Shown: positions 78 through 29,650 of the stretch, piece after piece
Layout: each line of letters starts with the position of its first letter
Numbering within the stretch: position 1 is the first letter of the stretch
Virus record (IMG/VR): IMGVR_UViG_3300034073_003363
Span: 1 to 32,632 of that record
Strand: one strand, 5' to 3'
Origin: a virus
DNA length: 32,632 nucleotides
Program-made: the position numbers and the translations under genes
The notes under the pieces: generated by a model
Told to the model about the DNA's origin: nothing
The model's database searches: none
Seen by the model: the letters and a program-made list of their open reading frames with translations, nothing else

Positions 78-383
78 TCATGTTCGGTTGCCGCGTGCGG
101 CGTTGCAGCTGCGATGCGCGGGTAGGAGTGGCGAGGTGGGGTCGGCTGGCACCAGGTGGTCGGCCTGCCAGGGGTCGCCGTCTCGAGGTCCGTGCCCGCA
201 GATCCAGCAGTGTGTTGCGTTGGCTCTGACGGCTGCTGCTCGTCGCCGGTAGTCGCCTTGGTAGTGGCGGCGGACTGGTCGTTGTGCTGCGCGTTGTGTG
301 GCGATTCGGGTGTGGCAGGTGGGGCATCGGGTTCCGTTGATGGTGAGTTGTTGGCAGTCGAGGCAGGGTCGTGGTGTGCCCAT
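78..383 (-). CDS. HNH endonuclease with N-terminal zinc knuckle
   Basis: This 101-residue protein is a small phage HNH nuclease. An N-terminal CxxC pair (C7/C10 and C20/C23) looks like a zinc ribbon. The HNH core follows: C59/C62, then D75-H76 in QADHL, and the closing H90, C93, N94 of HRSCN. The ATG overlaps the primase stop by one base (TGATG), so it is translationally coupled to that gene. In many actinobacteriophages an HNH gene lies just upstream of the terminase genes and helps DNA packaging. Here the terminase large subunit lies at the opposite window edge, so the two would be neighbours on a circular or circularly permuted genome. That role is inference; the fold call is firm. Confidence 0.85.
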   Translation of the reverse strand: MGTPRPCLDCQQLTINGTRCPTCHTRIATQRAAQRPVRRHYQGDYRRRAAAVRANATHCWICGHGPRDGDPWQADHLVPADPTSPLLPAHRSCNAARGNRT

Positions 384-3118
384 CAGAAGATCTCCCCGGC
401 GGGTGGTGGTGTTTTGATGGTGTCATGTGTGGGGAGCGTGTCGCGCGTGTCGCGCGTGTCGACGGGGGTGGGGGGAGAGATGTTGTTTATTTCTGAAGAA
501 GAAGAAGGGGTGTTTTCTCCCCCCTTACGCGACACGCGCGACACGGACGACACGCTCGGGTTATCCACAGGCGAAACGGTCCGCGACACGGACGACACGG
601 ACGACACGCTCTGGTTTTTGGTGATTTTGGTCGGCGACACGCGCGACACGGACGACACGCTCGGTTGTGGGTTGGTGAGGTGTTTGGCGGCGTCGGGGTG
701 TGTGGCGAAGGTTGGTGATGGTTTGCCTTTGCTTGTTTGGGTGAGGAATGGGCCGTCGAACTGTGGTCTGATCCAGCCGGTGTCGGTGAGTAGTTGGACG
801 GTTGGTGCGAGTTCGGTGATGTCGGTGAACACTCGGCGCATGTTGCGGAGGATGTCGCGTGCGCTGAACTCGATGAGGCCGGCACGGGTCACCCATTCCA
901 ACAACTTTTTCGCTTTGGCGATTCGTTCGTCGATACCCCATCCTGCGGAGATTCCGGCCATGTGGGCGATGTAGTAGTCGCCGAGGTCGATGGCTCGTTG
1001 CATGGTGTCGACCTGGATGTCGGGTTGGTTGTTGTGTTCGGCGAGGTGGAGTAGTGCGGCGATGCGTAGGACGTTGGCTCGTACTTTGCCGCACCATTCG
1101 GCGAGGTGTTCCAGGTCGCCGCCTGGTGCGATGCGATGCTCGAGGTGTTGGTCCCATTGGGCGAAGAGGTCGCTTGTTTGGCCGGTGACGTGGAGTGTGG
1201 CTGGTGCAGTTGCCAGCGTTTCGGCCAGGTCGACGATGGCAGCGTCGTAGTGTCGTCGTGCGGTGTCGTCGCCATTCGATACCTTCATGCGGTTGCGGGT
1301 GCCGACGTTGGATGCGGGTTTGCAGAGCAGGAATCTTGCTGTGAGGCCTCGTCCGGCGAACTGTTTTTTGGCTCCTACTTCGTCGAGGACAAGTGGTTGA
1401 ACGGTGGTGATGACGCAGAGGTTGGCTTCGGCGATGTGGATGCTGTCTCGTTTGATGCGGTCGACGACGTAGCGGCCGCCGCTCCAGCCTTCGAGGTAGA
1501 GGTCTAGGTTGGCGGTGCCGTCGCCGTACATGCCGGCGATGCGGTCGAAGATGCCGCCTTCTGCGCTGACTACGGCCATGGAGCCGCCTGCGTCGGCTAG
1601 TGCGACGCCTAGGGCTTCTGTGGTGGCGTCGTCGGCCATGAATCGCCCGGATGGCACCCGTGGCAGGGTGAAGAGTTCTTCGACGATGTCGAGCATTTCG
1701 TGGCGTGCTGCGCGTGCGTCTTCGCCGCTTGTTTTGGCGGCTTTGTCTTCGAGGTTGCGGCGTTTCTTTTCGAGGACTGATCGGTCGGCGTCTGCGCGTG
1801 CTCGTGCTGGTGCTGCTGCCGCCATGCGTTGTAGTTCGAGTTGTTCGAGGGCGTTGAACATGGCGGCTTTGGCTGGTGATTTGCCGGCGGAGGGTGGGAG
1901 TGCGACGGCGCAGAACAGGTTTAGTGGTTGTGTCCATTTCTGCCGGTTGTAGGTGACTTTGGTTTTGCCGAGCGCTGCGACTGATAGTGCTCCGAGTGCG
2001 AGTGTGGCTGGGAGGTCGACGGCGACCTGGAGGTCGTCTGCTACGTCGACGGCGTGGTCGACGATCCATGTGGGCAGGGTGTGTAGTGGGAATGGGGGTG
2101 GTTCGGTTTCTTCGGTGAGTGGGATGGGGTCGGGCCACGGTTCGTTGGGGTCGATTGTGGTGTGGCTGGTTGGGGTGACCATCCCCCCTGTTTTTTGGGT
2201 TTGTAGGAGTCGTTTGGCTGCTTCGCTGCGGTTGCCGTTGTGGTGGCGGCAGGCGTAGTAGCCGAAGCGGCTGTATGCGGCTTCGGGTAGCCAGGGGAGG
2301 CTCGAGGTGAAGACTCGGAGCATGTCTTGGCCGTTCCAGCCGACGGTGGCTGAGGTGCCTTCTTGCGGGTTTTTGCCTGGTCGTGTCCAGTGTTGTTCGC
2401 CGTTGCGGTCGGTGTGGGTGTGTGTCCAGCCGTCGGCTTGGAGGAGTTCGGGCCAGGTGGTGGCTGCGTTGAATCGTGCGGCGGGGCCGTCGTCGATCAC
2501 ATCCCATCCCGATGGTTCGACTGTTCGTGGTGGTGTGGCTGGTTCGATAGGTGTGAGCCGTTCGACCAGCCAGGACGGTGCCTCTGCGACGGTGATATCA
2601 GATGGGCTATGGTCGGCGAGCCATTCGTATGGTCGGCCGTTGGGGTGGATGGTTGGTGGTGCGAGGACTTGGCCGCCGACGCCTCGGATGTCGAGTCCTG
2701 GGCCGAGTCGTCGACCAGCGTCGTTGTGCACCGGTGTTGGTGATGTGAGGTAGATGTGTCGGCCATCTGACCCGGTGAGCACTTCGACGGTGGCCGGTAG
2801 CGCCCCGTTGGCTGTCTCGAGGTCGTGCAGTGTGTCTGAGCCTGATGCTGCGGGGTCGTGTTCGTCGACGTCGACGACGAATAGGTAGTGGCCGTTTGGG
2901 AGTTGGCCGGTGGCGACGCCGAGTCCGTGGTCGCGGTAGAGGCCGGTGAACCAGTTGCGGATGGTTGCGGGGTTGTTGGTGGCGGCGTCTTGCCATGCGG
3001 TCATGGGTGGCCGTTTGTGACCGGGTTTGATAGGCAGTACACGCCAGCCGAGTTGCGCGAGTTGGAGTGCTTCGGTAAGGACGTCGGGTGGTGTGGGTGT
3101 GTCGTGGGCAGTGCTCAT
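383..3118 (-). CDS. Prim-Pol / DUF3987-like primase-helicase replication protein
   Basis: This 911-residue protein is the main replication protein visible. Residues about 10-190 match the bifunctional primase-polymerase (AEP) fold: D83 and D85 in VVDVDEHD, H121 in GRHIYL, and LDIRGVGG near 142-149. These are the usual metal and nucleotide residues. From about 345 a helicase-like domain resembling DUF3987 begins, with a Walker A-like PPSAGKS at 408-414. I start at the ATG at 3118, which forms an ATGA overlap with the GIY-YIG stop; upstream in-frame codons would run deep into that gene. The last ~100 residues are low-complexity, with repeated SVSSVSRVS blocks that come from DNA iterons (see the origin feature) rather than from a recognisable protein domain. 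It probably primes and unwinds phage DNA at that origin. Confidence 0.88.
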   Translation of the reverse strand: MSTAHDTPTPPDVLTEALQLAQLGWRVLPIKPGHKRPPMTAWQDAATNNPATIRNWFTGLYRDHGLGVATGQLPNGHYLFVVDVDEHDPAASGSDTLHDLETANGALPATVEVLTGSDGRHIYLTSPTPVHNDAGRRLGPGLDIRGVGGQVLAPPTIHPNGRPYEWLADHSPSDITVAEAPSWLVERLTPIEPATPPRTVEPSGWDVIDDGPAARFNAATTWPELLQADGWTHTHTDRNGEQHWTRPGKNPQEGTSATVGWNGQDMLRVFTSSLPWLPEAAYSRFGYYACRHHNGNRSEAAKRLLQTQKTGGMVTPTSHTTIDPNEPWPDPIPLTEETEPPPFPLHTLPTWIVDHAVDVADDLQVAVDLPATLALGALSVAALGKTKVTYNRQKWTQPLNLFCAVALPPSAGKSPAKAAMFNALEQLELQRMAAAAPARARADADRSVLEKKRRNLEDKAAKTSGEDARAARHEMLDIVEELFTLPRVPSGRFMADDATTEALGVALADAGGSMAVVSAEGGIFDRIAGMYGDGTANLDLYLEGWSGGRYVVDRIKRDSIHIAEANLCVITTVQPLVLDEVGAKKQFAGRGLTARFLLCKPASNVGTRNRMKVSNGDDTARRHYDAAIVDLAETLATAPATLHVTGQTSDLFAQWDQHLEHRIAPGGDLEHLAEWCGKVRANVLRIAALLHLAEHNNQPDIQVDTMQRAIDLGDYYIAHMAGISAGWGIDERIAKAKKLLEWVTRAGLIEFSARDILRNMRRVFTDITELAPTVQLLTDTGWIRPQFDGPFLTQTSKGKPSPTFATHPDAAKHLTNPQPSVSSVSRVSPTKITKNQSVSSVSSVSRTVSPVDNPSVSSVSRVSRKGGENTPSSSSEINNISPPTPVDTRDTRDTLPTHDTIKTPPPAGEIF
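434..662. repeat. Iteron array, candidate replication origin inside the primase gene
   Basis: Four 28-bp clusters lie at 434-461 (inverted), 530-557, 584-611 and 635-662. Each holds exactly three CGACAC units spaced 9 bp apart and ends in CGACACGCTC. Unit starts on the + strand are 530, 539, 548; 584, 593, 602; and 635, 644, 653. In the inverted cluster GTGTCG starts at 438, 447 and 456. A perfect DnaA box lies between the first two forward clusters. The stretch 481-506, between the inverted and forward clusters, is about 73% A+T in a GC-rich genome and could be the unwinding element. Because one cluster is inverted and read in another frame, conservation acts on DNA. Iterons plus DnaA box plus AT-rich DNA next to a primase gene is the classic theta-origin layout; use as an origin is inference. 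Confidence 0.72.
561..569 (+). promoter_or_regulatory. Consensus DnaA box (TTATCCACA)
   Basis: The nine bases match the bacterial DnaA-box consensus exactly. They lie 3 bases after the end of the 530-557 iteron cluster and 14 bases before the next. In the primase frame they encode part of VDN. The perfect match in the middle of an iteron array suggests that host DnaA binds here to help open the origin. Confidence 0.7.
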
Positions 3119-3651
3119 GAGTAGTTCCTTGCAAGTCTTTTGGCATAGATGCGGCCAGGTTCGCAATCGGGTCTATGTGGGCCGATCACCCATCGCGTTC
3201 TGTTGTTGGCGAGCGCAATCCAACGCCGTTTCTTGGCGAGATTCAAGGCATCGATGCGAATTGACCAGCTCCATTCGTCGAGCATTTCGGTCAACTCGTT
3301 GAACGACCCGTTTCGTTCTGCAATGACTTTCCATATGTAGCGAGCGCAAAGTTCAACATCCTGGGCGTAAAAGTCGGTAAGGCGATCACAAACGCAGTCA
3401 GCAAAGTGTTCCGACAAAGCGTCGGTGTTGTGCTGCTTGTTGTAGAGCGGCCGTTCATTTCTTATCGCTAAACGCTCCAAGTGCTCTGCCTCGGCGCGAC
3501 TCTCGGTAATGACAATCTCGATTCTCGCAACATCGCCGAACCAGGGCTTCTCTGCCTTGTGTTGGCTCATTCGACCAAGAGCGGACCATGAGATTCCGAC
3601 GTACAGCAATTGATCTTCTGCGTCGTACAGCCGATACAGATCGCAACTCAT
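3115..3651 (-). CDS. GIY-YIG nuclease-domain protein
   Basis: This protein has 178 residues. The N-terminal ~75 residues follow the GIY-YIG pattern: LYRLYD at 5-10 replaces GIY and LYVGIS at 16-21 replaces YIG. Next come a basic stretch with R27 and H31, a glutamate-rich helix (HLERLAIR, E59) and LYN at 69-71. The C-terminal ~100 residues are unrecognised. The ATG overlaps the upstream HNH stop (ATGA), and its own stop overlaps the primase ATG (ATGA). A sample line of this gene is about 48% GC while the neighbouring primase is about 63%, which suggests recent acquisition. It may be a free-standing homing-type nuclease or act in host DNA degradation or repair; the sequence does not decide. Confidence 0.8.
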   Translation of the reverse strand: MSCDLYRLYDAEDQLLYVGISWSALGRMSQHKAEKPWFGDVARIEIVITESRAEAEHLERLAIRNERPLYNKQHNTDALSEHFADCVCDRLTDFYAQDVELCARYIWKVIAERNGSFNELTEMLDEWSWSIRIDALNLAKKRRWIALANNRTRWVIGPHRPDCEPGRIYAKRLARNYS

Positions 3652-4103
3652 GAGGTCTGCCTCGGCAGTGCTTTGATCATGAGGACTCGGTACATGAGTG
3701 CGATGTGTGTGGCGTTGATGTCGTCTGATTTACCGAGGTTGCATTCCTCGCAGAGTGGTACGAGATTCCATTCGCTTTCGATGAGTGCGTCGTAGCAGCC
3801 TGCTCGTTTGGCGGCCTCGACCGGCAGCATGTGGTCGATGTGGAGTACGACGCCGTGTAGGGCGGGTGATCTGCCGCAGCTGACGCATTGGTGGCTGTGG
3901 GTGGCTAGGACTCGGGCCCGGGTTGATGGTTTGAGGTTTGGTCTTGACCGGACGGGTTGGCGTTCGTCTTTGGGTGCGTTGTAGCACCAGGTGCCGCAGT
4001 GGTCGCAGGTGACGCAGCGTTGCCCGTTGCGGACGTCGATGCTGCCTTCGATCGAGCCACATTTCTGGCACGGTGAACGCATGGTGATCGGTTCGAGGTT
4101 CAT
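3648..4103 (-). CDS. HNH endonuclease with N-terminal zinc ribbon
   Basis: This 151-residue protein starts with a cysteine-rich ribbon (C12, C15, C30, C33, C36, C40). It then has a clear HNH core: C73/C76, H88-I-D90-H91, N113 in EWNLVPL, and C118, C121, N122. It is followed directly by the GIY-YIG gene (4-base overlap), so two nucleases of different folds sit side by side upstream of the primase. A GAGGAC Shine-Dalgarno lies just upstream of the ATG, in the 15-base gap after the HTH gene. It is a second HNH gene, distinct from the one at 78-383. Likely roles are homing or DNA processing; its target is unknown. Confidence 0.87.
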   Translation of the reverse strand: MNLEPITMRSPCQKCGSIEGSIDVRNGQRCVTCDHCGTWCYNAPKDERQPVRSRPNLKPSTRARVLATHSHQCVSCGRSPALHGVVLHIDHMLPVEAAKRAGCYDALIESEWNLVPLCEECNLGKSDDINATHIALMYRVLMIKALPRQTS

Positions 4104-28039: not shown

Positions 28040-29650
28040 TCACTCCTTGGTGATTCCGGCCAGGACGAGACGAGCCCGTCGCTGAGAAAGATTGGGAATC
28101 GACACGTGGCGCTCGACCGGGGTGTCGGGTTCCGACGGGTGGCTGTCTGCCGGGCCGTCGGTAAAGGCGGGCGACGTCTGTTCGACGTCGGTGCCTGAGA
28201 TCAACATGCGTGCAATTTCACCACGAATTTCGGGGTCTTGCAGCAAACTCAAAGCCTGCTTGCTTCTGACACCAACCGTGGTCTGTTCGTAGGCGGGGAA
28301 CACGACCGGCCCTACCTCGTACAACTCGACTTCACGGATGGTGCGTTCGGCGATGCCGTTCTTGGTGCGAGTCCAGTTGTCGTCGACGACACGGAACCGA
28401 AACGACATGCCAGAGATCGCACCGTCACGAATTGCGTCACGCACGGGTTCAACCAGCCAGTTGTCGGAAAGACGAGCCTTCACACGCAAGCCGTGTGAAT
28501 CCTCCACGATCGAGGTGATGCGGCCGAGCGGGATCGACCCGATCAGCGGATGGCTGCCGTGATCGAACTGCAACACCGGCATCCGCTGACCGAGAGTGCG
28601 CTTGAATGCGCCAGGGGCGATCCGTTCACGGAACGACCCTTCGTAGTCGTTGATGTCGGTCCACTCGTCGAACACCGCCGCATACCCCTCGAGGGTCAGG
28701 CCGTCAGCCGATGGGGCGGCACGGAACTCGACTCGCCGGATGCATTCCTGCCGCATCTCCGTCATCGTCGTCATCTTCTGCCTCTCTGCTTGAATCTCTT
28801 CAGCCTTCCGGCTGAACCAGTCACGGGCAGGATCAGGGTCGAGCGGATCAATGCCCCAAAGGTAATGGGCGACCGCACCGGCACCAGGCCAGCCGTCGTC
28901 GCTGTCGTTGCTGTTTGACGGGGCCTCGAGGTCGACAGCGTGACGTGCAGCCCAAGCGTTCGCCCGAATCACCTTGTCCTCAGTGATGTCGCCGTTGGCC
29001 ATCGCACGCGCCTCACGAACGGTGCGGTCGGTGACACCATCACCACCGAAGCCGTCGGCACGCAGATCCAGGCCACGGGCCGCAGCCGCAGAAATGTATC
29101 GAGGTAGATCCAATTCGACCTGACGAACTGCACGCAGGGACTGTGGAGTGACCGCCTCAATCCCCAGCTCCCGATACGCCGCACGAATCTGTGGATCGTC
29201 ATCGATCGCTAGGATCACGTTGTGATCATCGAGAATCTGCACAGCAACAGCTTGTTTCCACATGACGCTGTCGGTTTCTTCATCCGGTTTCATCGCCAAT
29301 GAAAACTGTTGCAAACCAGCATCTTCGAGTTCTCGTCTGGTTTCACCATCGTCAGCGACACGCGCTGTCACGACATATACCGAACCAGCGAAAGAGTTGA
29401 CATATTCGATTGTTGAGGTGATCGGGTCGCCTTCGAACGTCAACAGCGTGCCGTCGACATCGACGATGATGGCCGGCGGATCATCCAATGACCGTTCCCC
29501 GCCTGAATCGATCCCCTCCGCAAGCGACAAAGCCACCATCTGATCGATCGCATCAGCTTTCGTCTGATGACAGCCCATCACCTCGCCGTCTTCTTTCACC
29601 GTCGCCCAACCGGAACAGTCAGGGTTGTCGTCCTCGATGAAGTACGGCAT
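28040..29650 (-). CDS. Prohead protease (S78) fused to a HAD-like domain
   Basis: This 536-residue protein appears to have four parts. Residues 1-50 hold SGWATVKEDGEVMGC, a short module seen in phage head proteins. Residues 60-175 form a HAD-like domain with DVDGT at 64-68, VVTAR at 93-97 and DD at 150-152. Residues 183-290 hold an ARGLDLR ... AHYLWGIDP domain also common in phage structural proteins. From ~300 to 465 lies the S78 protease with FDH (H364) and ISGMSFRF (S413/S416), followed by an acidic region (EVELYEVGPVV) that may supply the third residue. An ATG at 28774 with GAGAGG upstream could give a free protease. HAD domain use is unknown. Confidence 0.85.
   Translation of the reverse strand: MPYFIEDDNPDCSGWATVKEDGEVMGCHQTKADAIDQMVALSLAEGIDSGGERSLDDPPAIIVDVDGTLLTFEGDPITSTIEYVNSFAGSVYVVTARVADDGETRRELEDAGLQQFSLAMKPDEETDSVMWKQAVAVQILDDHNVILAIDDDPQIRAAYRELGIEAVTPQSLRAVRQVELDLPRYISAAAARGLDLRADGFGGDGVTDRTVREARAMANGDITEDKVIRANAWAARHAVDLEAPSNSNDSDDGWPGAGAVAHYLWGIDPLDPDPARDWFSRKAEEIQAERQKMTTMTEMRQECIRRVEFRAAPSADGLTLEGYAAVFDEWTDINDYEGSFRERIAPGAFKRTLGQRMPVLQFDHGSHPLIGSIPLGRITSIVEDSHGLRVKARLSDNWLVEPVRDAIRDGAISGMSFRFRVVDDNWTRTKNGIAERTIREVELYEVGPVVFPAYEQTTVGVRSKQALSLLQDPEIRGEIARMLISGTDVEQTSPAFTDGPADSHPSEPDTPVERHVSIPNLSQRRARLVLAGITKE

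Follow-up and report, generated by a model that had tools for sequence, protein, structure and literature searches.

A putative iteron-type replication origin within the coding tail of a phage primase-helicase gene

The last ~280 bp of a Prim-Pol/DUF3987 primase-helicase gene in a phage genome most likely constitute an iteron-type replication origin lying inside coding sequence and, judging from the sequence, the iterons are probably recognized by the encoded primase-helicase, acting as its own initiator. We describe here, by computation, the sites and their layout, a constraint that acts on the DNA, concerted change of the iteron among relatives, the association of the array with the gene, clustering of DnaA boxes, and a nearby switch in GC skew. 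A preliminary description had proposed a plasmid-type theta origin at this position. Its layout stands, with fixed-phase direct repeats of one short unit (12 units in four clusters, at exactly 9 bp), an A+T-rich region beside the iterons – weaker in the relative L005 – and an adjacent DnaA box, all as in iteron-type theta origins, but the likely initiator is the primase-helicase, and DnaA is a helper at most because L069, the most divergent relative, lacks the box.

The gene and its terminal array

The DNA analyzed (the window) is a complete IMG/VR record of 32,632 bp with genes of a tailed phage, including those for the terminase large subunit, head maturation protease, major head protein, and tape measure. 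A WhiB-like protein encoded in the window points to a probable actinobacterial host. A separate 536-aa open reading frame at 28040-29650 (minus strand) matches polynucleotide kinase profiles at residues about 53-169 and head maturation protease profiles at about 303-467, and is a possible kinase/protease fusion.

What had been called a primase proved to be an N-terminal Prim-Pol domain fused to a DUF3987 helicase-like domain, both assigned by profile matches (Table 1), and the actual start codon may lie downstream of the TTG. A PDB profile search with the Prim-Pol domain returned chains of pRN1 ORF904 as its sole matches (E=3e-4). A winged-helix-like segment immediately precedes the C-terminal tail in an AlphaFold2 model built from seven sequences; its PDB fold matches are weak and non-significant, with origin-recognition-complex subunits ranking first (best E=0.045). 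The array fills the last ~280 bp of the gene and encodes solely the tail, and because this signal-bearing segment is predicted to be disordered the protein would tolerate the DNA signal.

The four clusters of the preliminary description are all present exactly, giving 12 copies of CGACACG in sets of three 9-bp CGACACG(NN) units, with one cluster inverted and CGACACGCTC closing every one. The longer motif CGACACGNNCGACACGNNCGACACG has four zero-mismatch matches, at 437-461 on the minus strand and at 530-554, 584-608, and 635-659 on the plus strand, where dinucleotide shuffles of the whole window predict 0.01 matches with up to three mismatches allowed; just one other match occurs in the window, overlapping and with three mismatches. 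The perfect TTATCCACA reported earlier is the sole exact copy within the window, and the A+T content of about 73% given for the 26 bp at 481-506 agrees with our count of 19/26. Among the 32,607 26-mers of the window, only those starting at 478, 480, and 481 reach at least 73% A+T, and these A+T-richest 26-mers sit between the inverted and the direct clusters. The patch is flanked by two further elements absent from the preliminary description, CGGGGGTGGGGGG and CCCCCCTTA. The array matches none of the families in Rfam, and a search for tRNAs found none.

Table 1. Features of the primase-helicase gene and its array in the window
Feature	Position	Strand	Basis or remark
Prim-Pol + DUF3987 primase-helicase gene, predicted initiator	383..3166	-	927 aa from TTG; full-length homologues exist
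Prim-Pol (AEP) domain, residues 33-199	2570..3070	-	PF09250, E=5e-40
DUF3987 helicase-like domain, residues 380-738	953..2029	-	PF13148, E=1e-88
Predicted winged-helix domain, residues 747-830, candidate iteron-binding domain	677..928	-	AlphaFold2
Predicted disordered C-terminal tail, residues 832-927, pLDDT about 22-30; its codons form the array	386..673	-	AlphaFold2
Iteron cluster 1, inverted, three CGACACG units at 9 bp	434..461	-	pattern match
CGGGGGTGGGGGG box (CCCCCCACCCCCG on gene strand), kept in relatives	463..475	+	comparison with relatives
A+T-rich patch, candidate unwinding element	478..506	.	composition scan
CCCCCCTTA box (TAAGGGGGG on gene strand), kept in relatives in two reading frames	519..527	+	comparison
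Iteron cluster 2	530..557	+	pattern match
TTATCCACA, DnaA box, 3 bp from cluster 2; CCTGTGGATAACCCGAGCGTGTCG identical in L005	561..569	+	
Iteron cluster 3	584..611	+	pattern match
Iteron cluster 4	635..662	+	pattern match

Constraint on the DNA and conservation among related phages

The repeats are constrained as DNA, as the preliminary description had argued. Nine of the ten Val-Ser pairs in the tail are GTG-TCG, although in the gene body GTG accounts for 12.5% of Val codons and TCG for 9.4% of Ser codons, and among 20,000 synonymous recodings of the tail none yielded even one of the four clusters; it is from these two results together that we place the constraint on the DNA. As had been noted, the inverted cluster is translated in a different frame (DTRDTRDT, versus SVSSVSRVS-like for the direct clusters), and the direct clusters are spaced by multiples of three, 54 and 51 bp. 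That the direct clusters encode Val-Ser repeats in one frame could be taken as a low-complexity repeat (VSSVS) maintained in the protein, with the DNA repetition a by-product of tandem duplication. With the inverted cluster, the rare codons, the use of three frames, and the loss of the peptide in relatives all standing against it, this account has a negligible probability, and a conserved peptide was dropped as an explanation, being contradicted by the frame and codon tests.

Searches of viral contigs guided by the protein recovered six relatives with the full or nearly full domain layout (L005/L033, which are one contig; L036; L037; L068; L087; and L069), whose proteins are 44-64% identical to that of the window. 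At the same gene end all six carry 9-bp iterons, a spacer, and inverted 9-bp iterons, although the L005 contig breaks at the array and its inverted side is visible only in part, at the opposite contig end. The spacing is 9 bp in the window and in every relative, and the facing sets are separated by 61-64 nt in the five contigs measured. The unit itself varies between phages while remaining near-uniform within each – CGTGTCGNN in the window and L005, CATGTCGGT in L036, CATGTCATG in L037, CATGTCGCG in L068 and L087, and GGTGTCCGT in L069 – with a TGTC core and variable flanks, and the changes occur in concert on both arms. The encoded peptides differ accordingly (VSSVSRVS, HVGHV, HVMHV, NVAHVAHVT, and MSRMSRMS across the group), and in L068 one iteron read in three frames gives NVAHVAHVT, MSRMSRMS, and, inverted, DMGDMDD. 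The G/C boxes TAAGGGGGG and CCCCCCACCCCCG bound the spacer and are exact in four of the six relatives (L036, L037, L068, and L087), degenerate in L005, and absent in L069, and TAAGGGGGG is encoded in two frames (RKGG/PKGG versus IRGE). The spacer of L005 is not A+T-rich. Read from these alignments, the pattern is one of concerted change in a DNA signal beneath a changing peptide. The preliminary description had named relatives without clusters but with the same protein repeats as the case that would count against a DNA signal; the opposite was found, with the DNA architecture kept.

The bare triple unit was also tried as a diagnostic. A scan of IMG/VR with it returned 24 loci, 23 of which are unrelated to the array, being DT/DS-repeat coding or simple repeats, and L033 is the exception; the triple unit alone is therefore not diagnostic. 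GTDB genome scans found no homologue, and no match was found among the phages searched at the DNA level.

The distribution of DnaA boxes fits an origin: of 13 exact copies of TTATCCACA in the window and eight relative contigs, nine adjoin an array, and exact boxes lie beside arrays in five of the six relatives, L069 having none. One copy in L037 lies immediately 3′ of the stop codon, and because of this placement is not kept for its peptide. GC skew, proposed earlier as a check, also fits, with the largest 3-kb jump falling 124-1030 bp downstream of the array in 7/7 contigs, upward on the gene strand, even though the genes mostly run one way; this assumes joined ends for the contigs of the window, G004, G005, and G006. 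Because the switch is close to where replication genes give way to packaging genes, it may reflect the composition of the modules, and we treat it as supporting evidence only. In small plasmids with arrays (see below) the GC-skew minimum has no consistent position, and skew was therefore used for the phage group only.

The window, G004, G005, and G006 seem to be circularly permuted contigs whose ends fall within the array or close to it, and this is why the window begins there. In G002 the array adjoins the terminase large subunit, which in the window is found at the right end, and roughly 1 kb is missing from the window.

Arrays with other helicases and alternative roles

Similar arrays accompany other helicases. 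In L008-L010 a Prim-Pol N-terminus about 55% identical is fused to a different, RecA-like helicase, and the gene ends (L008:4405, L009:8184, and L010:8175) carry the iteron AACCGCGCC, some copies in another frame, with inverted copies that read GGCGCGGTT; in L084/L085, also with the same Prim-Pol but a different helicase, the gene-end iteron is GGCACA. These sequences suggest that a helicase and its origin are swapped as a unit. Another Prim-Pol helicase type (L073-L082) has GGGGACA repeats and a short ACACA hairpin past its stop codon, a possible downstream origin.

Iterons of 9 bp also occur at the gene end in plasmids of Actinobacteria that carry homologous genes without a terminase in the vicinity. 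Those of plasmid NBC_00562, TGACAGAAC, lie downstream of the homologous gene, and in Tsukamurella tyrosinosolvens plasmid 14 (L104, gene 2287-4023) GGGACAGAA occurs three times inside the gene and twice past its stop, in 9-bp phase. The gene, of YfjI/DUF3987 type, belongs to an integrase-bearing element, and its three GGGACAGAA units encode the terminal GQKGQKGQK, a short intragenic iteron set outside phages. The phage-plasmid NBC_01335 has GCAGGGACC iterons at its primase end. In the Streptomyces NBC_00859 plasmid (L106/L123), where Prim-Pol and DUF3631 genes are adjacent, 29-nt perfect inverted arms of 9-bp CCGCTACNN straddle the DUF3631 stop codon. RepAM of actinomycete ICEs has been described as a predicted rolling-circle initiator, in an account whose relevant passages do not discuss iterons (PMC3218068). 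The inverted arms of NBC_00859, a plasmid comparable to the RepAM/DUF3631 and Prim-Pol modules of those ICEs, suggest that RepAM/DUF3631 replicons may use an iteron origin and not rolling-circle initiation.

By a mechanical repeat score, 18/35 gene-end windows outscored every non-overlapping window of their own locus. Among the gene ends that did not outscore their loci were those of T1-like and marine phages and of plasmids from E. coli and Legionella; since arrays are missing from the distant DUF3987 genes of these plasmids and of the T1-like phages, the association of array and DUF3987 is not universal. Separately, the repeat-richest stretch of the Planktothrix agardhii plasmid p2 (L125, about 28300-28950) lies in the 3′ part of a DUF3987 gene ending at 29053. 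Many DUF3987-linked iterons have GACA in common (CGACACG, CGACATG, TGACATG, TGACAGA, GGACAGA, and TGACAAA), a hint that they may be bound in a similar way. We give an even chance to a general rule for Prim-Pol-linked initiators in the phages, phage-plasmids, and integrative plasmids of Actinobacteria: each would have a cognate 9-bp iteron origin of its own at the 3′ terminus of the gene for the helicase part, often in the codons of a disordered tail, with helicase type and iteron swapping as one module.

Other roles for the array have to be weighed against this body of comparisons. The inverted clusters could act mainly as a DNA stem-loop origin that is recognized by its structure and not as iterons, as proposed for pRN1: the gene-strand DNA at 430-561 folds at -46.7 kcal/mol (z = -11), and the window, L036, and L037 have exact arms of 16-25 nt and loops of 67-73 nt that resemble pRN1. 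The L068 fold is far weaker, however (z = -4), the arms match one another at 44/44 positions in the TGTC core but at 19/22 in the flanks and 25/33 in the linkers, and a hairpin needs neither the 9-bp periodicity nor the extra direct units, of which there are six in the window and five in L068. A stem-loop as the main element thus seems unlikely; iterons read by a protein offer a better interpretation of the sequence, to which extruded structure may contribute.

Regulation of transcription is a still less probable role. Any regulator could bind short tandem sites, and the window encodes HTH and WhiB-like proteins, such that the repeats might be operators of a repressor or activator for downstream or antisense transcription instead of an origin. 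But the array follows the 3′ end of the primase-helicase across phages and plasmids despite different neighbors, lies inside the preceding gene in the window's group, and has a symmetric inverted layout around a spacer, with DnaA boxes, that is unusual for operators. A packaging (pac/cos) site, with terminase genes about 1 kb downstream, is more improbable again. Pac sites can be intragenic repeat clusters, HNH and terminase genes come after the array in the window's group, and the contigs are circularly permuted and frequently broken at the array, although such breaks also fit assembly failure at inverted repeats. We rate packaging low because plasmid homologues without terminase carry equivalent arrays; moreover, the array of NBC_01335 is at the primase end and about 9 kb from the terminase, the genes annotated around the array in phage Constance include no terminase, the iterons change with the helicase module, and DnaA boxes would be unexpected at pac.

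Comparison with known origins and a proposed mechanism

The closest parallels to an embedded iteron origin come from several known replicons. ORF904 of pRN1 combines Prim-Pol, SF3 helicase, and a C-terminal winged helix. Its origin, mapped by experiment to a site immediately 3′ of the gene, was proposed to be a stem-loop with a 21-nt stem and a 58-nt loop, the sequence motifs bound by the AEP initiator being described as 'not yet identified' (PMC4234260). The window resembles it in the AEP primase-helicase fusion, in Prim-Pol domains that are homologous by profile, and in a putative origin placed where its own gene ends, with inverted arms and a ~60-70-nt loop, the arms differing among relatives while symmetry is retained; the predicted winged-helix-like segment of the window protein, with its weak fold matches, may be a further likeness. 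It differs in that the pRN1 origin lies past the stop codon and is described without iterons, whereas the window has 9-bp iterons, and in that pRN1 is an archaeal plasmid with an SF3 helicase where the window has DUF3987.

SaPI Rep and SCCmec Cch2 bind iterons 3′ of their own genes through C-terminal domains (PMC7581432). Both are self-loading helicases, as proposed here, in which a C-terminal domain reads short iterons (predicted for the window), and the SaPI arrangement, an A+T-rich segment flanked by iteron sets where the helicase gene ends, recurs in the window, there inside the gene. These origins lie outside the gene, however, in Firmicute satellites and cassettes, with DUF927 or D5-like helicases that were not found in the window protein, and most lack the Prim-Pol fusion. 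Lambda O is not a primase-helicase, and its iterons are all direct, lie mid-gene, and are bound by the O N-terminal domain. The lambda ori in gene O, for which intragenic iterons are mentioned (PMC11447400), is nonetheless similar in placing iterons within the initiator's coding sequence beside an A+T-rich region. The alpha protein of P4 is a single primase-helicase initiator whose winged-helix origin-binding domain reads repeats (PMC4234260). The window resembles P4 alpha and its ori/crr in its single predicted primase-helicase initiator, in which a candidate winged helix would read the repeats, although the primase of P4 alpha is of the TOPRIM type. P4 uses two separate sites.

We infer a mechanism in which binding, melting, priming, and bidirectionality are the steps deduced from sequence. 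The C-terminal winged helix of the primase-helicase would bind the 9-bp iterons through their TGTC/GACA core, and the oppositely oriented sets would position two facing helicase assemblies across the ~60-bp spacer bounded by the G/C boxes. Host DnaA at the adjacent TTATCCACA would assist in melting the A+T/pyrimidine-rich spacer, after which the helicases would load, one on each strand, and the Prim-Pol domain would prime.

By these comparisons the origin mechanism would be comparable to those of SaPI, P4, lambda, and pRN1, and the writing of iterons into the coding tail of a Prim-Pol/DUF3987 gene would be new; in the literature searched, the origins of many actinobacterial Prim-Pol/DUF3987 replicons appear undescribed. 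The array presents a clean case of one DNA stretch as both a predicted origin and coding sequence, and an iteron that changes in step on both arms beside a variable, predicted winged helix offers a testable recognition code. The array family also provides a means of locating origins in uncultured phages and, if the rule linking Prim-Pol initiators to gene-end iterons is true, the origin would be readable from the gene end alone.
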